The notes under the pieces are model-generated. The model worked only from the letters and a program-made list of their open reading frames with translations. It was not told the DNA's origin and searched no databases. Shown here in pieces: positions 11,273 to 23,082 of a stretch of DNA of 39,817 nucleotides (its first letter is position 1; each line of letters starts with the position of its first letter). This DNA is from Micavibrio sp. Lineage in GTDB: Bacteria > Pseudomonadota > Alphaproteobacteria > Micavibrionales > Micavibrionaceae. Location: the NCBI GenBank assembly GCA_012960155.1, contig DUBU01000026.1, forward strand, positions 1 to 39,817. Direction: 5' to 3'. Position numbers and translations under genes: made by a program.

Positions 11273-11327
11273 AGCCCTTGCCATTTCGGGAAGGAAACAT
11301 TAAGAATAACGCGTCTAGAACGGCCTT

Positions 11328-11403
<76 letters not shown>

Positions 11404-11448
11404 TTTTCCTAAAAATCTAGTAATCTGAGCCCAGTTCTAAAAAATACC

Positions 11449-11477
11449 TTGAAAGTGTAACATTATAACATTACATG
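11449..11477 (+). promoter_or_regulatory. Zur-box promoter of unit 1
   Basis: A -35 TTGAAA (11449-11454) and a weak -10 TACATG (11472-11477) are 17 nt apart. The spacer and -10 are covered by TGTAACATTATAACATTACA (11456-11475), with outer arms TGTAA/TTACA. The box differs from the one at 14363-14382 at only 2 of 20 positions, and the -35 and spacing are identical. The half-site ATAACATTAC fits the TGTTATA/TATAACA theme of proteobacterial Zur sites. A Zur dimer here would occlude RNA polymerase, and zinc depletion would open the promoter. The regulator is encoded at 22648. Confidence 0.85.
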
Positions 11478-11520
11478 TTGTCCTGACTTTTTATTTAGAA
11501 GAAAAAATTAGGAGAATGTA

Positions 11521-12654
11521 ATGCCTGTAACTGTTGTAGGTGGCGCTGGTGCCGATGGTAAGACAACCGTGCTTGAGCTTGTGTCAAAATATTTGGTTTC
11601 ACAGGGGCAAGAGCCGCTAGTCATTGATGCGAACCCTGATCAGAATCTGGCCAGTTTCTATGGCTTGCCCGAAGAGCTGGAAGCCGACATGCCCGAAATT
11701 TGTAATCACTGGGAAGATATTCGTGATTATCTGGAAGGCGATAATCCTGATTACCCGCACAAAGATCACATCGTTGATGTCTCTCCGTTAACCGAGCATT
11801 CTGCACGTTGGGCGGCAGGTGATAATAATGACCAGATTTTACAACAATATAGCCGCGAGTTTGAAGGCGTGCGTTTTATGCGTACTGGCACATATGAAGC
11901 AAAAGATATCGGCGCCGGCTGCTTGCATGACAAGATTGGCGCACTGACATTCCTATTGAACCACATGAATGATGGCTTGCACGGTGAAGATCGTGTGACA
12001 TTTGTTGATAATGCCCATGGCCGTGATGCTTTTGGCACACCGCTTTATGCAGAAGGCGATGTTATTCTGGTTGTCGCGCGTCCAGAGAAAAAATCTATCG
12101 ATATTATGAAAGATTATCTGGAAATGGCCAAGCAGGTTGAGGAAGATATTGGTCACCCGATTAACATCGTTGTCGTCGGAAACCGTTTCAGCACAGACCC
12201 TGATATTTTTGAAGCGCAGAAAAAGATTTTTAAAGAGCTTTGCGGTGATAGTTTTGTCGCGGCGCTGCAGAATGATGAAGCGCTGGAGCGTGGCTTGAAT
12301 GCCGAGCTTGCAGGGCTTGTACGCAGCGGTTTTAACGTTGCAGCAGCAGGGGGTAAGGAAATCCTGAGTAACATTGAGATGACTAATCAAGGCCCGCGCC
12401 TTGAGCAGTTAAACGCCCATAACCTTGCTGCACTTGCAACAATTGCTGAAACATTAAGCACCGCAGAGCGTATCCCTGAGCGTAAGAAAGAGTGGATCGA
12501 TCTCTGTCTGGGACGTGCTGATTATCTGGATAAACTTATTGATCCGTCAGTGCGCGAACAAAAATCTGACTTCGTGGCCGATAAGCATGAACACGGCCCC
12601 AGCTGCGGTCATCATCACCACCATCACAGGCACGGCCCAGGCTGTAAGCACTAA
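11521..12654 (+). CDS. NifH/CooC-like P-loop ATPase with His-rich C-terminal tail
   Basis: This 377-residue protein belongs to the SIMIBI group (CooC/NifH/ArsA-like). The P-loop is GGAGADGKTT (7-16). It keeps the Walker Lys14, but the 'signature' lysine found in NifH, CooC and ArsA is replaced by Ala9. IGAGCLHDKIG (Cys134) aligns with the NifH segment around Cys97, and VDNAHG (Asp163) is the likely switch II. The last 23 residues form a metal-binding tail with ten His (six consecutive at 364-369) and two Cys, like the nickel or zinc stores of HypB and CooJ. It is the first gene after Zur box 1, 12 bp before the COG0523 GTPase, so a zinc-delivery or starvation role is likely. It pairs logically with the paralogue at 14419. 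The partner protein is unknown. Confidence 0.85.
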   Translation: MPVTVVGGAGADGKTTVLELVSKYLVSQGQEPLVIDANPDQNLASFYGLPEELEADMPEICNHWEDIRDYLEGDNPDYPHKDHIVDVSPLTEHSARWAAGDNNDQILQQYSREFEGVRFMRTGTYEAKDIGAGCLHDKIGALTFLLNHMNDGLHGEDRVTFVDNAHGRDAFGTPLYAEGDVILVVARPEKKSIDIMKDYLEMAKQVEEDIGHPINIVVVGNRFSTDPDIFEAQKKIFKELCGDSFVAALQNDEALERGLNAELAGLVRSGFNVAAAGGKEILSNIEMTNQGPRLEQLNAHNLAALATIAETLSTAERIPERKKEWIDLCLGRADYLDKLIDPSVREQKSDFVADKHEHGPSCGHHHHHHRHGPGCKH

Positions 12655-12666
12655 GAGGGCATTGCG

Positions 12667-13884
12667 ATGAGTAAGAAACTCCCTGTTACAGTTTTGTCCG
12701 GCTTTTTAGGGGCGGGAAAAACAACGCTTCTCAATCATATTCTCAACAACCGCGAAGGCAAAAAAGTCGCGGTGATCGTTAATGATATGAGTGAAGTCAA
12801 TATTGATGCCGATTTGGTGGAGCGTGGCGGCGCAAATCTATCGCGTACCGAAGAGAAGCTGGTTGAAATGACCAATGGCTGTATTTGTTGTACGCTTCGC
12901 GAAGATCTTCTGGAGCAAGTGGAGCATCTGGCATCGGAAGGCAAATATGATTATCTGTTGATCGAAAGTACAGGAATTGCCGAGCCTCTTCCGGTCGCGG
13001 CTACATTCGACTTTCGGGATGAAAGTGGCAAGAGTCTGTCTGATATGGCGGAGCTGGACACTATGGTGACCGTAGTTGATGCTGCCAATCTTGTGAAAAA
13101 TTATAGCTCTACTGACTTTTTGAAAGATGGTGATGAAAGTCTGGGCGAAGATGATGAACGCACGCTGGTTGATCTACTGGTTGAACAGATCGAATTTGCT
13201 AATGTTATTATTTTGAACAAAGTCGATCTGCTGGCCGCCGAAGAGCTGAAGACGGTTCACGCCATTATTCGTAGTTTGAATGCGTGTGCCAAGATTATAG
13301 AAACAACATTGGCACAAGTTGACATCAATGAAGTGATGGATACCGGGCTTTTTAGTTTCGATGAAGCACAGGAGCATCCATTGTGGGCGCAGGAGCTTTA
13401 TAATTTCAACGATCACGTTCCCGAGACAGAGGAATACGGTATCGTAACCTTTGTCTATAAATCCAGGCACCCCTTTCACGCGGAAAAATTGCATAAGTTT
13501 TTTAATGAGCCGTGGGCGGGCGTGGTGCGCGCTAAAGGCTTTTTCTGGCTAGCGACACGTCCTGATTTTGTGGGTGAAATGTCACAAGCAGGTGCGTTCG
13601 TACGTCATAACGGCATGGGCCGTTGGTGGGCTTCTGTTCCTAAAAGCAGGTGGCCGGATACGGCTGAGTTTGACGAGATGATCAAGGAAAGCTGGGATGT
13701 AAAATACGGAGATCGCCGTCAGGAACTGGTCTTTATCGGCCTGAAAGGTGAAATGGATGAACAAGCCATTCGCAATCGCCTCGATGATTGTCAGGTGAAA
13801 GGATACGCCTCTGCGCCTGATCGTTGGGTGGATGCTCCGGACCCTTTTCCTGTATGGTTCAAATCTGACAGCCAGGCTGCTTAA
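12667..13884 (+). CDS. zigA: COG0523 zinc-chaperone GTPase, ZigA/YeiR type
   Basis: This is a G3E GTPase of 405 residues. It has Walker A GFLGAGKT (12-19), the family metal motif GCICC (71-75, preceded by MTN), switch region ESTGIAEP (100-107), NKVD guanine specificity (184-187) and a CobW C-terminal domain (about 250-400). ZigA and ZagA proteins are known members that are induced by zinc limitation and hand zinc to client enzymes. The Zur-box promoter upstream agrees with this. A His/Cys tail is absent from this protein; the preceding ATPase carries one instead. It is followed 14 bp later by a small exported Cys peptide. Family identity is firm, but the client protein is unknown. Confidence 0.92.
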
Positions 13885-13898
13885 TAAAGGAAAGTGTT

Positions 13899-14090
13899 AT
13901 GAAACTAAATATTACCACTGTGATTGTGACCATTTTTGCGATGTTCCAAATAGGCGACGCACAGAAAGCCCATGCGACTTCATCGGCGGCTGAAGGCACA
14001 GATAAAACGCCGTTTGAAACAAATTCACATGGCTGTGGGTGTAGTTGTGCATCTTGCAGCGTAATATCAGAACAATCGGCACAAAGATAA
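13899..14090 (+). CDS. Small exported Cys-rich peptide, putative metal binder
   Basis: This encodes 63 residues behind a good ribosome site (AAAGGAA). The first 26 residues look like a signal peptide (hydrophobic ITTVIVTIFAMF, cleavage after KAHA), so the mature peptide would be about 37 residues in the periplasm. It ends with SHGCGCSCASC: cysteines 46, 48, 50 and 53 plus His44, a compact site well suited to one zinc or copper ion. I know no family for it. It is the third gene after Zur box 1 and is likely co-transcribed with the GTPase. It could be a periplasmic zinc carrier or sponge, or the substrate of a redox system. The function is inferred only from Cys spacing and position. Confidence 0.65.
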   Translation: MKLNITTVIVTIFAMFQIGDAQKAHATSSAAEGTDKTPFETNSHGCGCSCASCSVISEQSAQR

Positions 14091-14119
14091 AGTTGTTAAC
14101 TACAAAATAATGCGGTTTC

Positions 14120-14137
14120 TGCTATACTGATAGTATA
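14120..14137 (+). promoter_or_regulatory. Extended -10 promoter with overlapping 6-3-6 inverted repeat, upstream of metallothionein
   Basis: TG at 14120-14121, one base, then TATACT (14123-14128) form an extended -10 with no good -35. TATACT and AGTATA (14132-14137) are perfect inverted arms separated by GAT, so the -10 is half of a small palindrome. The site is 19 nt before the metallothionein start and does not resemble the Zur boxes. The metallothionein may therefore be transcribed independently and controlled by some other factor. Confidence 0.5.
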
Positions 14138-14155
14138 AGGAAAGGAAAAAGCATT

Positions 14156-14311
14156 ATGGCTCCTATGTCTGAAATTTGTGCGTGTCCTGATTGCGGTTGC
14201 AAAGCAGATGACGCGTTTTCAAAAGAAAATAAAGCCTATTGCAGCAAGTCCTGCGCCAATGGCCACGTTGATGGCAATGGTTGCGGTCACGGTTGCGGCT
14301 GCCACGGGTAA
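14156..14311 (+). CDS. Bacterial metallothionein, SmtA/BmtA family
   Basis: This 51-residue protein was read directly from the sequence. It has nine cysteines (8, 10, 13, 15, 29, 33, 43, 47, 49), the same number and order as cyanobacterial SmtA. An opening CxCxxCxC is followed by a YCSKSC zinc-finger-like segment with ANGH, then a CGHGCGCHG ending. His37, His45 and His50 match the SmtA histidine positions. Such proteins hold about four zinc or cadmium ions in a buried cluster in the cytosol. A purine-rich AAGGAAAGG precedes ATG 14156. It lies between two zinc-starvation promoters, in line with unit 1, whereas SmtA-type proteins are classically induced by zinc excess. A zinc reservoir or buffering role is inferred. 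Confidence 0.93.
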   Translation: MAPMSEICACPDCGCKADDAFSKENKAYCSKSCANGHVDGNGCGHGCGCHG

Positions 14312-14355
14312 ATAACGTTTAAAATTATAGCGCTTGCCTAGTCCTTATATTTATC

Positions 14356-14384
14356 TTGAAACTGTTACAATATAACATTACATT
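14356..14384 (+). promoter_or_regulatory. Zur-box promoter of unit 2
   Basis: The -35 TTGAAA (14356-14361), a 17-nt spacer and the -10 TACATT (14379-14384) are overlapped by TGTTACAATATAACATTACA (14363-14382). This contains the imperfect palindrome TGTTA-N5-TAACA. Position and sequence match the box at 11456 at 18 of 20 bases. The zur gene is the last gene of the unit that starts here, giving negative autoregulation if Zur binds. Confidence 0.87.
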
Positions 14385-14418
14385 CCTCTTGTTTCATTTA
14401 TAGACAAGGGGATTTTTC

Positions 14419-15393
14419 ATGCGCATAGCATTTTGTGGTAAAGGCGGCAGTGGTAAGTCAACAATGGCGAGTCTGACAGCGCGTATGTTGGCAAGCAAAC
14501 AAGCGCCTATTCTGGTTGTGGACGGCAATATTAACCAGCATTTGGGGGAAGCGCTTGGCTTCGGCGAAGACGCCATAGAATCGCAGCCTAAACTGGGTAT
14601 GGACTCAGGTTTGCTATTCGAGACTGTGCGCGGCACAAATCCGCGTATTCCTTCCGTTGATTACCTGACCGAGTCTACCCCCGCAGGTAACGGTAGCGGC
14701 TTTATTCATTTTGATCAGCCGTCACCGATTTACGATCATTACCAGATTGAAAAAGACGGCGTGCGCTTTATGGCTGTCGGCAGTCATGAAGAAGCAGAAG
14801 TCGGCACGACATGCTTCCATAAATTTACAGGCGTATTCGGCATTTTTCTGAACCACTTTATCGATCAGGATGGGCAGTATTTGATCGGTGATATGTGCGC
14901 CGGCGCAGATCCGTTCGCCTCTTCAGGTTTGGCAACACGCTTTGATGCTGTTGTACTGGTGGTTGAACCAACCCTGAAATCAACAGGCGTTTATGATCAG
15001 TGCAAAAAATACGCAGAGCCATATGGGACGAAAATCTTTGTCGTTGGCAACAAGGTCGAAAACGAAGCTGATGAAGCATTTATTCGTGAAAAGATCGGTG
15101 ATGATTTGATCGCTTGCTTTGGTAAATCCGAATATGTGCGCAACTTGGAAAAAGGCATATTCGCGCCTATCGCAGAACTTGAGCCAGAAAACGCAGCTGT
15201 CATAGAGACAATTCTTGAGCGCACGAGCGGCATTCAGCGCGATTGGGCAAAGTATCAGGAAAATGGTTTGAAGTTTCACAAGCAGGCCGCTGAAAGCTGG
15301 GCGAATGCGATGTATGGTGCTGACTTGATGGAGCAGTATGATCCTGAGTTTTCTTATGAAAGTCTGCTGACAGACCAGAAGAAAGCGGCTTAA
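14419..15393 (+). CDS. NifH/CooC-like P-loop ATPase
   Basis: This 324-residue SIMIBI ATPase is paralogous to the one at 11521. Its P-loop is canonical for the deviant class, GKGGSGKST (7-15), with signature Lys8 intact. Cys132 in GTTCFHKFTG occupies the NifH Cys97-like position, and switch II is DMCAG (158-162), placing a second cysteine (160) close to the nucleotide. It has no His-rich tail. CooC proteins bind a metal between subunits and drive nickel insertion, and NifH-type dimers hold a 4Fe-4S cluster between subunits; either could apply here. It opens unit 2 behind Zur box 2 and is 5 bp from the cysteine desulfurase gene. A heterodimer with the first ATPase is plausible. Confidence 0.85.
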   Translation: MRIAFCGKGGSGKSTMASLTARMLASKQAPILVVDGNINQHLGEALGFGEDAIESQPKLGMDSGLLFETVRGTNPRIPSVDYLTESTPAGNGSGFIHFDQPSPIYDHYQIEKDGVRFMAVGSHEEAEVGTTCFHKFTGVFGIFLNHFIDQDGQYLIGDMCAGADPFASSGLATRFDAVVLVVEPTLKSTGVYDQCKKYAEPYGTKIFVVGNKVENEADEAFIREKIGDDLIACFGKSEYVRNLEKGIFAPIAELEPENAAVIETILERTSGIQRDWAKYQENGLKFHKQAAESWANAMYGADLMEQYDPEFSYESLLTDQKKAA

Positions 15394-15398
15394 GCCTT

Positions 15399-16592
15399 AT
15401 GTCTTTACAGATGCCACAGCATATTTATATGGATTATGCAGCTAGTACGCAGCTTGACCCGCGCGTGGCAGATGTAATGGCGCCCCTGTTAGGGCAATTT
15501 TCCGGCAATGCGTCTTCTATGCAAAATCCACACGGACAAGCGGCCAAGAGGGTGGTCGATCAAGCACGTGAGCAGGTTGCGCAAGTCATTGGCGCATTGC
15601 CGGAAGAAATCTTTTTTACCTCTGGGGCGACCGAAGCCAATAATCTGGCTTTGATGGGCATTAGTGAGTATCTGAAGCAGCAAGGCAAAACGCATATTGT
15701 TAGTTCACGCACCGAACATGCCAGCGTGTTAATGCCTTTGGCGCAAATGCAGCGTGATGGGCATGATGTTGCATTTAGTGATCTGCTGTCTTGCGGTATG
15801 GCGGATGGGGCGCTTGTTTTAAATGAGGTAACCCCGCAAACAGGCTTGATATCCATTCAGGCTGTGAACAATGAGACAGGCGTTATTAACCCGCTGGATG
15901 AGATACGTGACGGTATTAAAGATACAGGCGTGATTTTTCATGTCGATGCTGCGCAAGCTATGGGCAAAATCCCGTTTAATGTTTCTGATCTGGGCGTGGA
16001 TATGGCAACGCTGTCTGCGCATAAGGTTTATGGGCCGCAAGGTGTGGGCGCGCTGTATATCCGCAAAGACATACAGCGCCATATTATGCCGATGATGCAT
16101 GGCGGCGGCCAGCAAGGGATGATTAGACCAGGCACATTGCCTGTGGCTTTGATCGCTGGTTTTGGTGAAGCCTGCCGTATTGCCGCCGATTGCCTGTCCG
16201 GGGAAAGGCAACGTTTAGAAAATTTGAATACACTATTTCGTGCAGAGCTGGATCATGCGGGCATAGGATACAAAATCAATGGGCATGATTACGGCGATGA
16301 CAGCCGCAACTGGCGCGTGCCGAATATCATGAATATCCGCTTTCCTGAGATTGAGAATGAATGGCTGCTGGAAGCTGTAGACGGCGTCTCGTTTTCAACG
16401 GGATCGGCCTGCAGCGCACACGGAAACAAGCCGTCCCATGTGCTGGATGCTATGGGGCTGTCTGCACAGGAAAGTAATGAGTCTGTGCGCCTTTCATTTG
16501 GGCGTTTTACGACCGAGGAAGACATCAAGCAGGTCGCACAGTCTTTTGTGACGGCGATTAATGCGATTACGGCGCTGGCTGATGCCGCGTAA
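15399..16592 (+). CDS. Cysteine desulfurase, NifS/IscS family
   Basis: This fold-I PLP enzyme has 397 residues. It should take sulfur from cysteine, leaving alanine and an enzyme persulfide. Key residues are in place: His107 (RTEHASVL), Asp183/Gln186 (HVDAAQA), the PLP lysine Lys209 (SAHKVYGPQG), GGGQQGMIRPGT, and the sulfur-carrying Cys338 in STGSACSAHG. The short active loop is of the IscS/NifS rather than SufS type. No Fe-S scaffold gene is nearby. The neighbours are NifH-like and PLP enzymes, so its sulfur may feed the rhodanese domain of the enzyme at 18121 or a metal site. No strong ribosome site precedes ATG 15399, so coupling to the upstream stop is likely; ATG 15411 is possible. Confidence 0.93.
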   Translation: MSLQMPQHIYMDYAASTQLDPRVADVMAPLLGQFSGNASSMQNPHGQAAKRVVDQAREQVAQVIGALPEEIFFTSGATEANNLALMGISEYLKQQGKTHIVSSRTEHASVLMPLAQMQRDGHDVAFSDLLSCGMADGALVLNEVTPQTGLISIQAVNNETGVINPLDEIRDGIKDTGVIFHVDAAQAMGKIPFNVSDLGVDMATLSAHKVYGPQGVGALYIRKDIQRHIMPMMHGGGQQGMIRPGTLPVALIAGFGEACRIAADCLSGERQRLENLNTLFRAELDHAGIGYKINGHDYGDDSRNWRVPNIMNIRFPEIENEWLLEAVDGVSFSTGSACSAHGNKPSHVLDAMGLSAQESNESVRLSFGRFTTEEDIKQVAQSFVTAINAITALADAA

Positions 16593-16612
16593 ACATTAAT
16601 GAGGACATGACA

Positions 16613-18124
16613 ATGAACCAGACTGCACCGAAAATTGAAGAGCAGGATAATACGCCGCCTTTATCCTTACCGCCTATTATCAACCCGATTACGCAGGCGT
16701 TTTTGGATCAGGAGCAGCAGACTGTTTTTGATCTGGTTGATGCGTTCGGTTCGCCTATGAACCTGATTTTTCCGCAAGTGATTGATCAAAACATCAAGGC
16801 GTTTAAAGAGGTTTATAAGAAGAACAATCTGGCAGGTCAGATATATTTCACCAGTAAGCCAAACAAATCGCTGTCTATTATGCGTCAGGTGTCTATGAAT
16901 GATGTGAATATCGATGTGTCATCGGAAGGCGCGCTCAAGACAGTTTTGGGCTGCGGTTTCAATCCGTCTCGTATTGAATGCACAGGCCCTAAAAATCTTG
17001 AGTATTTGTCGCTGGCAGTGCAGCAAGGCGTTACGATTAACGCGGATAATCTCACCGAATTAAAACAAGCGGTTGATATCCGTCGCAGTCTGGGCTTGAA
17101 AGAAAAGCTGCGCGTATTTGTAAGGCTTTCCGGTTTCAATTCACCACGTGTGAAATTTACGTCGCAGGACGGAACATTTGGCATCCACGTTAAAGACGCA
17201 CCACAGATTTTTGAATTTCTGAAAGCACATCAAGATGATCTGGACTTTCAAGGTTTTGCTTATTACTGGAGCAGCGCGAGCGAAGAGCAGCGTATTGTGG
17301 CATTAGAAAATGCGCTGGAGCTTACCTTCGCTGCGATCGAACACGGGCTAAATCCGAAGGGACTGAATATTGGCGGCGGATTCCACATTCAATATGCGGC
17401 AGACCGTAACCAATGGCTTCGTTACATTGATACCGTGAAAGAGTCTTTGCTAGAGTTTGATGAGCAACTGACATGGAACAATAACGGTCTTGGCTTCCGC
17501 AATGAAGGTGGTCTGATTAAAGGGGCTGCGAACTATGTCGACCATTTCATGCCGCGTACGGGTGCCGATGATTTTGACCAGGTGATGAATTTGCCGCTAC
17601 CGTCATTTGACGGTATGTCAGCGGCACAGATTATCAGCGATAGTTTGCTAGAGCTATATATCGAACCGGGGCGTTCTTTGCTGGATCAGCTTGGCGTAAC
17701 GGTCGGACGCGTTAATTTCAGCAAACCGTCTGTGAACGGTGAAACGCTGGTCGCGCTGGATATGAACCGTTCTAACATGCATTCAACGCACCAGAAACTT
17801 CTGACTGACCCAGTGGTCTTGTATAAGGACAAGGCGCGCTGCCGCCCCTGTCCCGAGGGTGTTTATTATGTCGGTAATTTGTGCGTGTCATACGATATTA
17901 TCACCTATAACAAAACATTTCCGACACTATTGCCCGAGCCTGGTGATTTGGTGGTCTTTGCCAATACAGCGCCTTACATCATGGACTTTATCGAGTCGAA
18001 TACGCTGCACCAGAACACAGGGCAGAAGGTAACTATTACACAAGAAGATGACCGCTTCCGCTGGTTTACAGATGAGAAATATAAGCCGGTTATTCAGAAA
18101 TACCTTAAAGGAGAAACAGCATGA
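16613..18124 (+). CDS. Fold-III PLP-dependent decarboxylase, ornithine/diaminopimelate decarboxylase-like
   Basis: This is a 503-residue member of the alanine-racemase-fold decarboxylases. Signs are the PLP lysine in FTSKPNKS (Lys82), the phosphate-binding NIGGGFHIQY, EPGRSLLDQLG, and the second-subunit segment VGNLCVSYDII whose cysteine corresponds to the active-site Cys of the family. It is longer than LysA or ODC (about 420) and more like the Y4yA/SbnH/BtrK branch used in siderophore and antibiotic pathways. The substrate is unknown. I start at ATG 16613: GAGG at 16601 is 8 nt away, but only 2 nt from ATG 16607. It overlaps the next gene by 4 bp (ATGA), so the two products are probably made together and act in sequence. 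Confidence 0.88.
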   Translation: MNQTAPKIEEQDNTPPLSLPPIINPITQAFLDQEQQTVFDLVDAFGSPMNLIFPQVIDQNIKAFKEVYKKNNLAGQIYFTSKPNKSLSIMRQVSMNDVNIDVSSEGALKTVLGCGFNPSRIECTGPKNLEYLSLAVQQGVTINADNLTELKQAVDIRRSLGLKEKLRVFVRLSGFNSPRVKFTSQDGTFGIHVKDAPQIFEFLKAHQDDLDFQGFAYYWSSASEEQRIVALENALELTFAAIEHGLNPKGLNIGGGFHIQYAADRNQWLRYIDTVKESLLEFDEQLTWNNNGLGFRNEGGLIKGAANYVDHFMPRTGADDFDQVMNLPLPSFDGMSAAQIISDSLLELYIEPGRSLLDQLGVTVGRVNFSKPSVNGETLVALDMNRSNMHSTHQKLLTDPVVLYKDKARCRPCPEGVYYVGNLCVSYDIITYNKTFPTLLPEPGDLVVFANTAPYIMDFIESNTLHQNTGQKVTITQEDDRFRWFTDEKYKPVIQKYLKGETA

Positions 18125-19431
18125 TCGTTGAACGTATGACGGATTTGATCGGGAACACACCGCTTTTAAAAATTCCTGCGGAGGTTACGGGGCTAAAGAA
18201 CATTGATCTTTACGGTAAGCTTGAATTGCTAAACCCATACGGCTCGGTAAAGGACCGTATCGCATGGGGTATGATCAAAGATGACCTTGAAGACATGGCC
18301 GCAAACGATCAGATGATTTTCGAGAATTCCAGCGGTAATACAGCCAAAGCGATTTGCGCGATTGCGGCTAGTTATGACGTGCCTTTCAAATTGGTCAGTG
18401 CCATTGCCAAGGTCAAAGAGACTAAAGACCTGCTGCGCATGCTGGGTGCAGAGATTGAAGAATTTGCGGCAGCGTCAGATTGCTTTGATCCGAATGACCC
18501 GAATGATCCGCAATACCTGATCGAAAAGGCTGTGCGCGAGGCAGGCGGTAAGATTTATTTTACGTCCCAGTTTACCAACGAAAAGAACCCCGAAGTGCAT
18601 GAGAAGACTACAGCGCAAGAAGTGCTGGAAGATCTAGGGTCTGTTGATTACTTCATCAGTGGCTTGGGGACGACGGGTTCAACGCTGGGTATGACGCGTG
18701 CGTTTAAAAAGAATAATCCTGATTGTGTTTGTGTCGGTCTGACATCAGCCAAGGGCGAGTTTGTCCCCGGTATTCGTTCGCTCGATCAAATGTGGGAGTC
18801 AGGACTTTATCAACGTGATAACTATGCTGATGTTGTGACGGTAGGCGAGAAAGCTGCGCTTGATGCCATGCTGACATTAAACCGCAGACTCGGTTTGTTA
18901 TGTGGCCCTAGCGCGGGCGCAAATTATCATGGTGCGCTGGAATATCTGAAAACAATTGATGATAGCCTGACCGAACGCAAGAGCGCGGTGTTCATCGTAT
19001 GTGACCGTGTGGAATGGTATATGTCCTATATTTCTGATCGTATGCCTGAGATGTTCGGTGAGAAAGAAAAGCCTGACTCATTGTTTAATTTTGATGAAAC
19101 GGCTGCGGGAAAAGCACCGCAGATTAATGTTGCTGACCTTGATGGCTGGATTGCCGAAAATGACCCTGTCATAGTAGATATAAGGTCATCTATCGCTTAT
19201 CGCATGGGGCATATTGACGGCGCGATTAACTTGCCGATCGAAAGTTTTGAAAAGCTAATTGATAGCAATTCGCCATTCCCTAAAGAAAAGCCTGTTTTGC
19301 TGGCCTGTGCCGTGGGTGAGAAAACAACGCGCCATGCCGCATATCTGCAAAGCCGCGAATATCGTGCGTATTCTGTTGAAGGCGGCATGATGGCACTGAA
19401 AGCGATGAAACAGCAAGCTAAGGCAGCATAA
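18121..19431 (+). CDS. Cysteine-synthase-like PLP enzyme fused to a rhodanese domain
   Basis: This 436-residue fusion has two parts. Residues 1-310 form a fold-II PLP enzyme: PLP Lys44 in NPYGSVKDR, substrate loop ENSSGNTAK (68-76), phosphate loop GLGTTGSTLG (181-190) and GPSAGAN (262-268). Residues 335-430 form a rhodanese domain with CxxGxK-type active loop CAVGEK (Cys396) and VEGGMMALK. CysK relatives either make cysteine or, like SbnA, join phosphoserine with another amino acid for metallophore synthesis. The usual CysK TSGNTG is here SSGNTA, which argues for a different substrate. The rhodanese domain suggests that persulfide sulfur, perhaps from the desulfurase at 15399, is used. It overlaps the decarboxylase (ATGA) and the ABC ATPase (TAATG). 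Confidence 0.88.
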   Translation: MIVERMTDLIGNTPLLKIPAEVTGLKNIDLYGKLELLNPYGSVKDRIAWGMIKDDLEDMAANDQMIFENSSGNTAKAICAIAASYDVPFKLVSAIAKVKETKDLLRMLGAEIEEFAAASDCFDPNDPNDPQYLIEKAVREAGGKIYFTSQFTNEKNPEVHEKTTAQEVLEDLGSVDYFISGLGTTGSTLGMTRAFKKNNPDCVCVGLTSAKGEFVPGIRSLDQMWESGLYQRDNYADVVTVGEKAALDAMLTLNRRLGLLCGPSAGANYHGALEYLKTIDDSLTERKSAVFIVCDRVEWYMSYISDRMPEMFGEKEKPDSLFNFDETAAGKAPQINVADLDGWIAENDPVIVDIRSSIAYRMGHIDGAINLPIESFEKLIDSNSPFPKEKPVLLACAVGEKTTRHAAYLQSREYRAYSVEGGMMALKAMKQQAKAA

Positions 19432-20084
19432 TGTTTTTGAAATCAACAAATATTGGTGTTCACAGAAAAGGTTCAGCATCTCTTTCATTTCCTGACTTGT
19501 CGGTGGATACAGGTGACTCCGTTCTTCTGTTAGGGCCTTCAGGGTCTGGCAAAACGACTTTGCTCTCTGCGCTTGCAGGTTTACTAAAACCTTCTGAAGG
19601 GAGTGTGCAAATTGAGGGTAATGATTTTTACGCTCTATCCTCGGCCAAGCGCGATCAGATCAGAGGCCAGAATTTCGGGTTTGTTTTTCAAACGCTTCAT
19701 TTGCTGCCGTCTTTGACGTTGCGCCAGAATATCGCCCTTGCTGCCGATATGGCGAAAGCATCGCCGGATGAAGGACGACTTGATAAGCTTATTAAAGATC
19801 TGGGGCTTACTGACAAGGCTCATAGAAAACCTGATGCGCTTAGTCAGGGTGAACAGCAACGGGCAGCCATTGCGCGGGCTGTGCTATTGCGCCCCAAGGT
19901 TATAATGGCGGATGAGCCGACATCCGCGCTTGATGATGAAAACGCGCAGAAGGTTATGGACTTACTTGAGGCGCAAGCCAAAGACACAGGCGCGGCGCTT
20001 TTGATCGCAACGCATGATAACCGTATTACAAACAGGTTCAAAAATATCATTACGCTGACCGACCAAACGAAGGAGGTCGCATGA
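19431..20084 (+). CDS. ABC transporter ATP-binding protein, LolD/MacB type
   Basis: This 217-residue ATPase carries Walker A GPSGSGKT (35-42), Q-loop Gln87, signature LSQGEQQR (137-144) and Walker B VIMADEP (157-163), followed by a THD switch histidine. It falls with the LolD/FtsE/MacB group, which works with FtsX-fold permeases. It starts inside the preceding stop codon (TAATG) and shares ATGA with the permease gene, so ATPase and permease should be made in equal amounts. The layout matches the ATPase of the Zur-controlled zrg cluster of Vibrio and PA4064-like proteins of Pseudomonas (recalled from memory). It probably powers a periplasmic zinc-handling step rather than classical import. Confidence 0.93.
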   Translation: MFLKSTNIGVHRKGSASLSFPDLSVDTGDSVLLLGPSGSGKTTLLSALAGLLKPSEGSVQIEGNDFYALSSAKRDQIRGQNFGFVFQTLHLLPSLTLRQNIALAADMAKASPDEGRLDKLIKDLGLTDKAHRKPDALSQGEQQRAAIARAVLLRPKVIMADEPTSALDDENAQKVMDLLEAQAKDTGAALLIATHDNRITNRFKNIITLTDQTKEVA

Positions 20085-21475
20085 ACGCCCTAACGCTTGC
20101 TGTTGCATCCATAAAATCGAGACCGCTTCACTCTTCACTCTGCATGGCTGCTGTGGCAGCTGGTATTGCATTACTGTGTGCAGTCTTTCTATTCTCGCAA
20201 TCTGTTGCGGCAGGCTTTGCGCGTAATGCGCAAGGTATTGATATTGTTGTCGGAACAAAGGGTAGCCCGCTGCAGATGGTACTGTCATCTGTTTATCACG
20301 CCGATATTCCTGCGGGAAATATCACAATGGCTGATTATGAGGAATTAAAGCGTAGCCGCCAGGTCAGGCAGGCTATTCCTTTGGCGCTGGGCGATAGTTA
20401 TAAAGGCTTTCGTATGGTCGGGGCGACGCCTGCCTATCTGGATTTGTACAAGGCTGAATTTAAAAATGGTGGCGTATTCTCAAAGCCATTTGAAACAGTA
20501 GCAGGCGCACATACAGGGCTTGCCGTAGGCCAAGAAATTGCTGTTACACATGGCTTTGCGGCGAATAGTGATGATGTACATGACGCCCATCTTTATAAGA
20601 TCACTGGTGTTTTGAAACCGACAGGAACGGTGCTGGACAAGCTTCTTGTTACGCAGGTTGCAAGTGTTCAGCAGCTTCACGCAGGCCATAGTCATTATGA
20701 TCACGCTGAAGAAGATGAGGAAAAAGAACCAGAAGAACACAACCACCATAGTCACGATGATGAACACTCTCATGATCACCATGAGGATCACCAGCACGAT
20801 AGCCACGATCATGAAACCCACGACCATGAAGCCCATGAGCATGATGAGCCTGCACATGACGAAAGCGAACATGAGGGACACGATCACGAAGATCGCCATG
20901 AAAGTGATGATGACTTAGCGGGACAGGTTACAGCTGTACTTATAAAAGTGCGGAGCCCTGTAGACCTTATGAACTTGCCGCGTAAAATCAATGAGTCTTC
21001 AAATGTTATGGCTGCCGTTCCGTCTTATGAGATGGCGCGCTTTACTAAAAGTCTGGGCATAGGCAAGCAGCTTGTCATCGTATTAGGCATTGGCTTTGTA
21101 ATCCTTGCCGCTTTGATGTTATTGGCATCACTAGCTTCAGGGTTGTCTTTGCGCCGTTACGATCTTGCTGTTTTGCGTGTGCTGGGGGCAGCGCCTGCGC
21201 GCCTATTTGCAACAGTTATGGCGGAAGCTGCTATGATTAGTGGCGCTGGCGCTATCATCGGCGTCATAGCAGGTCACCTCATTGCATATAGTGCCGTTAT
21301 TTCGATAGAAAGCCTGCGCGGACTGGTTCTGCCAGGGACCTTGCTCGCGCCGAATGTGACAGATATCTGGTTTATTTTGTTGGGGGTTGGTACTGGTCTG
21401 TTTGCGGCATTCGTGCCATCCTTAGCGGCAGCGCGCACGGATATTGCAGGCTTGCTGGCTAAAGGAAGATCATGA
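20081..21475 (+). CDS. FtsX-type ABC permease with 25-histidine periplasmic insert
   Basis: This 464-residue permease has one N-terminal helix (about 20-43), a large periplasmic domain and three C-terminal helices (about 330-352, 378-405, 428-448), the MacB/LolC topology. The last helix region ends VPSLAAARTDIAGLLAKG, as in the family. Residues 200-273 are an Asp/Glu/His stretch with 25 histidines in 74 residues, often as HDH or HxH. This is probably a flexible zinc-collecting loop on the periplasmic side. In related Zur-controlled clusters, as I recall, a separate His-rich periplasmic protein is encoded; none is found here, so the insert may replace it. It overlaps both neighbours by 4 bp (ATGA). 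Confidence 0.92.
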   Translation: MNALTLAVASIKSRPLHSSLCMAAVAAGIALLCAVFLFSQSVAAGFARNAQGIDIVVGTKGSPLQMVLSSVYHADIPAGNITMADYEELKRSRQVRQAIPLALGDSYKGFRMVGATPAYLDLYKAEFKNGGVFSKPFETVAGAHTGLAVGQEIAVTHGFAANSDDVHDAHLYKITGVLKPTGTVLDKLLVTQVASVQQLHAGHSHYDHAEEDEEKEPEEHNHHSHDDEHSHDHHEDHQHDSHDHETHDHEAHEHDEPAHDESEHEGHDHEDRHESDDDLAGQVTAVLIKVRSPVDLMNLPRKINESSNVMAAVPSYEMARFTKSLGIGKQLVIVLGIGFVILAALMLLASLASGLSLRRYDLAVLRVLGAAPARLFATVMAEAAMISGAGAIIGVIAGHLIAYSAVISIESLRGLVLPGTLLAPNVTDIWFILLGVGTGLFAAFVPSLAAARTDIAGLLAKGRS

Positions 21476-21996
21476 GATTAGTATTACTGACATTATTGAT
21501 GGCCTTGTTTATAGCATCGCCTGTTCACGCTTTTATGCTGGAAGAAGGTGGTGAAGAGGTTACTAAAACAATCGAAGATTATATTGAGGATTTCGTTGAT
21601 GTTCCTGAAGGCGGCGTGAACTGGAAAGTCTTCGGCACAACAAAGGAAATCGAAGCACAGACCGTCGGCCCTGAAGGCTATGATTATATCTACAGTAAGC
21701 CAGAATTCGCGCCGCAGGTCGTAGAAATGGACGGCAAAGAGATAAAAATCAAAGGCTATATGTTTCCTCTGGAAAGCGAAGAAGCACAGAAGAAGTTTTT
21801 ATTAGGCCCATTTCCCGCCAGTTGCCCGTTTCGATACCATGTTGGGCCACCGCTTGTCATCGAGGTGAATGCTGAAAATAATCCAGTAAATTTTGATTAC
21901 GAGCCTGTCACCATTCAAGGTACTCTTGAGCTGGTTCATGATGATCCTGAGTTCAGTACATTCTATCGTTTGCATGAAGCCGCAAAGGTGGATTAA
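21472..21996 (+). CDS. DUF3299 periplasmic protein (first copy)
   Basis: This 174-residue protein has a signal peptide (cleavage after SPVHA, residue 20) and a DUF3299 core. The core contains a VPEGGVNW segment, the strand GYMFPLE (95-101) and the family signature LGPFPASCPFRYHVGPP with single Cys118 and His123. The Cys/His pair in a fixed place suggests a metal or thiol function, but no activity is established to my knowledge. DUF3299 genes recur beside ABC and His-rich proteins in Zur-regulated loci. It overlaps the permease gene by 4 bp and the second copy by one base. Its role is probably to receive, hold or pass on zinc in the periplasm together with the ABC pair (inference). Confidence 0.88.
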   Translation: MRLVLLTLLMALFIASPVHAFMLEEGGEEVTKTIEDYIEDFVDVPEGGVNWKVFGTTKEIEAQTVGPEGYDYIYSKPEFAPQVVEMDGKEIKIKGYMFPLESEEAQKKFLLGPFPASCPFRYHVGPPLVIEVNAENNPVNFDYEPVTIQGTLELVHDDPEFSTFYRLHEAAKVD

Positions 21997-22604
21997 TGAA
22001 AGCGCTTAAATTAACAGCCAAGATAACGTTCACGCTGCTATCCTTAGCAGCTGTTATTTATGGCATTTATGCTTTTCAGAAGGTTGATCGACGCGATGCG
22101 ATCGATAAGACACTTGTATACCAATCATCCTTTACGATTACCAAGAGCATGAACTTTGATTTTACGCCATCAGAAGAAGAGATGATTGACTCTATACCCG
22201 AGTTTGTAAGTGTGCCTGAAGGTGGACTGGACTGGATGTTATTCGCAGAGACCGAAAGTGTCCCGTACGATTATGTAACAGAAGATGGTGAAGACATTAG
22301 CGGTGTTATGCCTAAATTTAGCGATGCATTGTCAGCTTTCGATGGACAGACAATCAAAATGCAGGGATACATGTTTCCGTTAAATGCGGAAGACAGCCAG
22401 AGCGTCTTTCTGTTCGGGCCATTCCCATTATCATGCCCATACCACTATCATGTTGGGCCTGCCCTTGTTATTGAAGCGCACGCAAAAGATAAACTGGAAT
22501 TTAATTTATCAGCAATCGATATCACAGGGGTGTTAGAGCTAGTGCCACGTGATGATGAATATAATGTTTTTTATCGCTTACGTGATGTGGAGCTTATTAA
22601 ATGA
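21996..22604 (+). CDS. DUF3299 periplasmic protein, membrane-anchored (second copy)
   Basis: This 202-residue paralogue of the preceding protein has an N-terminal helix at 8-27 without an obvious cleavage site, so it is probably tethered to the inner membrane. The core again shows VPEGGLDW, GYMFPLN (124-130) and GPFPLSCPYHYHVGP with Cys147, His150 and His152; the extra histidine is absent from the first copy. It starts in the stop codon of copy one (TAATG). Two DUF3299 genes in tandem are also the arrangement I recall for the Vibrio zrg cluster. The two may form a heterodimer, one soluble and one anchored, at the ABC permease. Confidence 0.88.
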   Translation: MKALKLTAKITFTLLSLAAVIYGIYAFQKVDRRDAIDKTLVYQSSFTITKSMNFDFTPSEEEMIDSIPEFVSVPEGGLDWMLFAETESVPYDYVTEDGEDISGVMPKFSDALSAFDGQTIKMQGYMFPLNAEDSQSVFLFGPFPLSCPYHYHVGPALVIEAHAKDKLEFNLSAIDITGVLELVPRDDEYNVFYRLRDVELIK

Positions 22605-22647: not shown

Positions 22648-23082
22648 ATGAGTACGAATAAGGTTATCAAAGAAGTCGAAGTTTATTGTCGTGAGCACGG
22701 TATTCGCTTTACGGATCAAAGACGCATGGCACTTGAAATTATCGCGTCCAGTAAAAAACCTTTAGGCGCTTATGATGTTCTTGCCGAAATGGGTAAGGAG
22801 GTCGAAAATCCAAAGCCCACTACGGTTTATCGCGCTCTTGATTTTTTGCTGGAACATGCGTTCATCCATAAAATCGAAAGCCTGAACGCTTTTGTTGTTT
22901 GTCACGCAGGCCATTCACATGAAGGCTCTCAATTTATGGTTTGTGATGATTGCGGTAAGGTCGAAGAGGTCCATCTATGCCATCTGCCCAAAGATCTGAA
23001 GAAAAAAATTGATGACACAGGATTTCAGCTGACCCGTTGGAACACAGAAATTCATGGCACCTGCAATCGTTGCCAGCCTTAA
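22648..23082 (+). CDS. zur: Zinc uptake regulator Zur (Fur family)
   Basis: This 144-residue Fur-family repressor has the winged helix recognition segment PKPTTVYRALDFL (about 56-68). The structural zinc site is Cys99xxCys102 and Cys139xxCys142. The regulatory-site region FVVCHAGHSHEG (Cys85, His86, His89, His91) resembles E. coli Zur rather than Fur. With zinc bound it should repress; without zinc it releases. It sits 43 bp after the last DUF3299 gene with no terminator between, so it is probably the last gene of unit 2 and under its own control through the box at 14363. A second weak promoter in the 43-bp gap (CTATACT) is possible. No terminator is evident after it. Confidence 0.93.
   Translation: MSTNKVIKEVEVYCREHGIRFTDQRRMALEIIASSKKPLGAYDVLAEMGKEVENPKPTTVYRALDFLLEHAFIHKIESLNAFVVCHAGHSHEGSQFMVCDDCGKVEEVHLCHLPKDLKKKIDDTGFQLTRWNTEIHGTCNRCQP

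Follow-up and report, generated by a model that had tools for sequence, protein, structure and literature searches.

The stretch of DNA analysed here, which we call the window, is 39,817 nucleotides long and comes from a Micavibrio genome. It carries a zinc-starvation island around a small metallothionein gene, smtA, with the following genes and sites:

11328-11403: tRNA-Trp, directly 5' of the island
11449-11477, plus strand: putative promoter P1 (TTGAAA, Zur box at 11457-11474, TACATG), from pattern and matrix
11521-12654, plus strand: P-loop ATPase gene heading the presumed operon, with a CbiA domain (PF01656, 28.7 bits, cut-off 25.4; CooC-like by eye)
12667-13884, plus strand: zigA, COG0523 zinc metallochaperone GTPase (NF038288, 603.5 bits, above the cut-off of 600)
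13899-14090, plus strand: ORF of 63 residues with a signal-like N-terminus (by eye) and an HGCGCSCASCS tail; no Pfam or NCBIfam family above cut-off
14120-14128, plus strand: possible extended -10 of smtA's own, TGCTATACT, by inspection of the sequence
14123-14137, plus strand: inverted repeat TATACTGATAGTATA, overlapping that possible -10 (region 14120-14137)
14137-14146, plus strand: smtA ribosome-binding site AAGGAAAGGA, by eye
14156-14311, plus strand: smtA, ATG start, 51 residues, SmtA/BmtA-type metallothionein (PF02069, PDB matches, Cys/His alignment)
14356-14384, plus strand: putative promoter P2 (TTGAAA, Zur box at 14364-14381, TACATT), from pattern, matrix and promoter scan
14384-14417, plus strand: terminator-like hairpin (stem 14384-14412) followed by five T, from folding
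14419-15393, plus strand: cooC2, second P-loop ATPase, first gene after P2 (PF01656, 23.3 bits, below the cut-off of 25.4; CooC-like by eye)
15399-19431, plus strand: further genes of the P2 unit, namely cysteine desulfurase-like, PLP decarboxylase and CysM-rhodanese (Pfam/NCBIfam)
19431-22604, plus strand: ABC ATPase (PF00005; LolD-like by eye), FtsX permease (PF02687) and two DUF3299-type ORFs (PF11736: 38.7 bits for the first, 20.4 for the second, which falls short of the cut-off of 22)
22648-23082, plus strand: zur, Fur family (PF01475 above cut-off), a name that rests on place and likeness since PRK11639 (112 bits) stays under its cut-off of 167

The original prediction saw in smtA a 51-residue metallothionein of the SmtA type that matches SmtA at nine cysteines and three histidines, and named a PF02069 profile search as its check. 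That search (44.5 bits, E 1.8e-11, gathering cut-off 33), PDB matches and alignment agree in bearing it out. The PDB metallothioneins matched are 6gv7 (E 3.2e-7) and 1jjd (E 1.2e-6), the second being SmtA; NCBIfam gave no family at E 0.1. All nine cysteines (8, 10, 13, 15, 29, 33, 43, 47, 49) and three histidines (37, 45, 50) align to those of SmtA, and the window protein is the shorter of the two by two residues between C15 and C29 and by one between H45 and C47. Relatives were sought in loci of named genomes, where 162 stretches matched, 130 of them encode a relative and the best 80 were kept; from these and the window, 74 ORFs (the window's included) were recovered for alignment and seven of 81 dropped. 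The nine cysteines and H37 are present in 74/74, H45 in 71 and H50 in 36 of the 74 sequences, a conservation that is partly by construction because the search patterns demand several of these residues. With its 13-residue C15-C29 linker the window protein stands alone among the 74 (15 residues in 72, 16 in one). Judged by sequence, the SmtA-type family and the gene anatomy are firm.

P1 and P2 are identical at 25 of 29 positions, and in both a Zur-type box lies between the -35 and -10 elements and covers the -10. Across the genome's 2.58 Mb, the pattern built from the two is matched exactly only at P1 and P2; since at up to three mismatches the Zur pattern matches 12 times (ten of them with three mismatches) and a reversed control 27 times, only the exactness of P1 and P2 carries weight here. 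For a matrix, sites with up to four mismatches to P1 or to a symmetrical form were sought in ten loci from elsewhere in the class (L009-L014, L024-L027), and nine sites from seven of these loci were combined with P1 and P2; three loci (L013, L025, L027) had no site, and two distant sites (L011:1939, L014:14232) as well as one overlapping site were left out. With the window's own sites excluded from the matrix, P1 scores 26.7 and P2 24.3, and the other nine sites, each scored without its own locus, reach 10.7 to 24.7, values that support rather than prove the assignment because the sites were chosen for resemblance to P1. Nothing else in the window, overlaps aside, exceeds 10.4. Taken together, both Zur-type promoters around smtA seem genuine.

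That smtA sits between two Zur promoters, as originally proposed, is right by position, but P2 lies 3' of smtA, points away from it and faces the next operon, the one beginning with cooC2, and smtA lacks a box of its own. Between 14000 and 14160 the best score is 10.4, which is background next to the 28.7 and 26.9 of the two boxes, and we therefore rejected smtA as a direct Zur target with a box in its own promoter. The promoter scan, which lists P2 and leaves P1 unlisted, likewise lists none ahead of smtA.

If Zur acts on smtA, it would probably do so from P1. Downstream of P1 follow the ATPase gene, zigA, the Cys-rich ORF and, as fourth gene, smtA, with gaps of 12, 14 and 65 nt, the widest being that before smtA, and from 12058 to 14384 the scan lists nothing that resembles a terminator. 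At 14384-14412 the RNA can fold into a hairpin (-12.8 kcal/mol, z -4.47), in a region (11300-14600) where terminator-like sites number 3 as against 3.1 in shuffles. From the promoter layout we infer that P2 transcripts start near 14391, within the first arm of this hairpin, so that they would not form it, and RNA folded from that position yields -3.8 kcal/mol. Transcripts reading through smtA, in contrast, would stop at the hairpin (14384-14417), which would hide the cooC2 ribosome site. A hairpin that would end read-through from smtA and not form in P2 RNA fits a P1 operon that closes with smtA.

What the window lacks is the customary partner. Among the best 80 of the 130 loci, some with short flanks, 43 have an ArsR gene no more than 620 bp away from smtA. 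Of the 13 alphaproteobacterial loci among these 80, 11 have it next to smtA (the exceptions being the Filomicrobium loci L056 and L062), as do 17 of the 21 non-cyanobacterial ones (exceptions L056, L062, L096, L103). Beside the window's smtA there is no ArsR/SmtB gene, and so the locus is no smt-type unit. Trans control by a stray SmtB was considered and rejected, for the genome's three HTH_5 genes (contigs C3, C14 and C25, the window being on C26) include no close homologue: the best match to an smtA-linked ArsR is 30% identical (E 4.1e-7), and all three proteins lack the D-x-[HC]-x10-H stretch of smtA-linked ArsR, which we liken to the SmtB motif. With no terminator-like site in between and no SmtB-like regulator found, control of smtA by Zur as a member of the operon seems likely, if well short of certain. 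As a separate observation, the arsR-free smtA of Filomicrobium L062 adjoins a TonB receptor gene (PF00593; 2568-4943).

How unusual is a metallothionein in a zinc-starvation island? When the best 80 of the 130 loci are sorted by record title into 59 cyanobacterial and 21 non-cyanobacterial ones, at least seven of the latter hold zinc-acquisition or zinc-starvation genes in the fetched flank, a minimum because gene maps covered 12 of the 21 and the other nine were probed with window proteins only, and a count from a gene list drawn up upon viewing the loci and without a matched control. The seven loci are:

L061: zigA, COG0523, Fur family, ZnuA
L078: two COG0523, PRA-CH
L080: Fur family, ABC-3, ZnuA
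L096: ABC ATPase, FtsX, DUF3299, at least 4.9 kb from smtA
L101: two COG0523, GTP cyclohydrolase I, PRA-CH
L125: NicO and DUF1007, which we take to be ZevAB-like
L131: two Fur family, COG0523

In six of these loci arsR adjoins smtA. COG0523 genes lie near smtA in four of the 21 non-cyanobacterial loci where 0.15 would be expected (Poisson 1.7e-5; 0.19 and 4.4e-5 for genomes of at least 3 Mb) and in three of the 13 alphaproteobacterial loci against 0.11 (1.9e-4), all from the best 80, with a control of at least 146 cobW-domain genes in 268.8 Mb from 96 genomes of the class that covers alphaproteobacteria only and whose rate may be low (31 candidates were scored in many control genomes), and with loci that are partly non-independent (the L080 ArsR is 91% like that of L028; L078 and L103 come from the same genome). 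For the 59 cyanobacterial loci the figure, given without control, is six. Zur-type boxes at a score of 14 are not above expectation in the best 80 of 130 as a whole (five loci against a mean of 8.4 in 20 rounds of single-base shuffles, one earlier round giving seven); in the 21 non-cyanobacterial loci they occur in five against 0.3 in shuffles, and at 18 or more in four against 0.0 over 20 rounds. These boxes lie kilobases from smtA, save one in L061, whose sites (14.4, 15.4) are the weakest. Life beside zinc-starvation genes thus looks like a recurrent habit of smtA, and the paradox that was originally read into the locus is less singular than it seemed, with at least seven of the 21 loci showing such neighbours. 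Distinctive of the window are the lack of an ArsR partner and the location of smtA inside the operon. We also noted smtA near PRA-CH paralogues and COG0523 GTPases in L101 (3906-7988, there also with GTP cyclohydrolase I) and L078 (1458-5259), presumably the typical zinc-sparing set.

We tentatively favour, at somewhat less than even probability, the reading that smtA encodes an SmtB-free metallothionein, stands at the end of an operon repressed by Zur and serves as buffer or relay in zinc starvation. P1 would transcribe the ATPase gene, zigA, the Cys-rich ORF and smtA, and end at the 14384-14417 hairpin; smtA would be free of its usual repressor, ArsR/SmtB, through which such a gene ordinarily responds to excess zinc. 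Once zinc runs short, Zur would leave P1 and apo-metallothionein would be made alongside ZigA and the ATPase; by homology it would hold three to four zinc ions very tightly and, as a cytosolic buffer and relay, could capture entering or freed zinc and pass it onward. Zur binding, read-through from P1, metal binding and the direction of zinc flow are all steps that we infer. The releasable store or buffer for the ATPases that was first suggested is plausible as a role of smtA, though protection from zinc shock on re-supply would account for the same facts. Against our favoured reading speaks that known smtA/bmtA genes rise with zinc; the possible -10 and the inverted repeat ahead of smtA, and the width of the 65-nt gap, also count against it.

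The Synechococcus SmtA/SmtB divergon shares with the window the nine cysteines, three histidines and PF02069, yet the window is without an adjoining smtB/arsR or a close homologue, has a shorter linker and places smtA after a Zur-type operon. In PCC 7002, repression of smtA by SmtB is lifted by zinc, and smtA is also up in a deletion of the Fur-type gene A2498, taken here to be zur, according to the sections consulted of PMC4628125. Closer, in that a metallothionein of the SmtA family is tied to Zur, comes BmtA of marine Synechococcus WH8102, where the bmtA promoter carries Zur boxes and is activated by Zur when zinc is high; in the window, by contrast, the box is far upstream of smtA and in a repressor-like place over the -35/-10 of the first gene. 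According to the WH8102 report, no bacterial metallothionein had been known to be under Zur until that case, which is one of high-zinc activation (PMC9337993, in part), and in the literature extracts available we recognised no Zur-repressed metallothionein. The Pseudomonas PflQ2 metallothionein resembles ours in family, in having no SmtB partner and in reportedly sharing an operon with other genes, but it is a stationary-phase gene for which the extracts of PMC7387436 gave no Zur link; according to the same extracts the P. fluorescens metallothionein is dispensable for growth under chelators and its promoter flat in TPEN. SmtA itself buffers zinc at pZn 9-14, its tightest sites being near the range of Zur (PMC10612145, in part). 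Rhodobacteraceae DT_101 (L061), where a ZnuA gene also lies nearby, resembles the window in that smtA neighbours ZigA (61-62%) and a gene of the Fur family, and differs from it by an arsR directly upstream of smtA and by smtA on the strand opposite zigA.

With an even chance of being right, we would regard the locus as the first case of an SmtA-type metallothionein that Zur derepression switches on in zinc starvation, one that may have lost SmtB and joined the ZigA operon, as an instance of a wider non-cyanobacterial habit of smtA to lie beside zinc-acquisition genes. This bears on roles of bacterial metallothioneins beyond detoxification of zinc or cadmium. If Zur-repressed, the gene would have the opposite sign to the WH8102 case, with apo-protein made when zinc is scarcest and, upon release of Zur, competing for the first zinc to arrive. 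Several loci with smtA beside COG0523, Fur-family and Znu genes are at hand for asking about zinc hand-over to ZigA-type GTPases.

An unlikely variant keeps the same Zur-repressed operon and sees the metallothionein as premade, a shock absorber for the return of zinc while uptake genes are still on. It has a precedent in yeast, where Zap1 induces ZRC1 in zinc-limited cells against a later zinc surge (PMC6070888, in part), and the arsR-smtA pairs near zinc-starvation genes elsewhere look as if both responses were paired; it is weakened by the absence of an excess-sensing ArsR from our findings, which leaves no known means of raising the protein once Zur has closed the operon. Just as doubtful is an independent smtA, transcribed from its own promoter with the extended -10 at 14120, constitutively or under another regulator at the inverted repeat, and clustered with its neighbours merely by metal. 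Besides the two sequence elements ahead of smtA, the frequency of a nearby arsR among the best 80 of the 130 loci, which marks smtA as often a separate unit, argues for this, and zinc genes cluster anyway. However, no good -35 for the 14120 element is seen by eye and the scan lists no promoter there; the repeat, of a 6-3-6 type that occurs 13 times in the window, is near chance expectation and may be fortuitous; and no SmtB-like protein was found in the genome. As an operator common to smtA loci the repeat was rejected, being absent upstream of smtA in the best 80 of the 130 loci, where its six matches lie kilobases from the gene. That smtA is a recent, poorly working passenger whose linker and near-H45 deletions damaged the cluster, to which its single copy among 142 genomes of the order and its singular linker might point, is hardly credible for a gene that retains all nine cysteines, H37, H45 and H50, a good ribosome site and an open frame.

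In its own genome smtA is the sole PF02069 match at E 10, as it is among the 142 genomes searched of the order, and 385 genomes drawn from the class gave three matches, the window's included. In one of the others (G241, locus L028, which shares its contig with L125) smtA is immediately preceded by an ArsR gene; for the third (G181, L029) there is none within 11 kb. As to origin, two candidates were rejected: a plasmid source, given that 72,556 plasmid records hold no smtA match at E 0.01, and insertion of the island at tRNA-Trp, given that its last 12-20 bases have no second copy elsewhere in the window. In genome G001, moreover, the same left flank, with its TetR gene, is followed by a tRNA pseudouridine synthase gene and by neither the tRNA nor the island.

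Related islands exist without the metallothionein. zigA occurs in seven of 58 genomes searched, own included, and the six others have no PF02069 match. Two of them (G015, locus L011, and G042, locus L010) resemble the window in having zigA, a Cys-rich ORF, an ABC ATPase, an FtsX permease, a DUF3299 ORF and zur, and differ from it in that the fetched stretches are without smtA, cooC2 and the PLP genes; the fetched stretches of the remaining four yielded no more than zigA, with zur in addition in L012. The small ORFs with an HGxGCxCASC tail occupy the same slot, between zigA and the ABC ATPase, in L011 (7245-7403) and L010. The genes from the ABC ATPase to DUF3299 (19431-22604) are, by this comparison of gene content, the resident core common to L010 and L011, and 14091-19430, with smtA, P2, cooC2, desulfurase, decarboxylase and CysM-rhodanese genes, is extra relative to both. 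cooC2 is found in five of 385 genomes of the class, own included, and lies near or adjoins a zur-like gene in L024 and L026; no smtA was found in the four fetched cooC2 stretches, with the L024 and L027 contigs only about 6 kb long. No report of a cooC2-type gene set in Zur regulons turned up in our literature search, and the genome gave no ZnuA match. The set of cooC2, desulfurase, decarboxylase and CysM-rhodanese genes may possibly serve a small-molecule (zincophore-like) or metal-sulfur cofactor pathway.

Some minor features deserve mention. The C-terminus of the first ATPase is rich in His and Cys (12580-12654, HGPSCGHHHHHHRHGPGCKH), the FtsX permease carries a long His/Asp/Glu insert (20650-20920), and in L010 a Zur-type box (3998) lies ahead of the small Cys-rich ORF.
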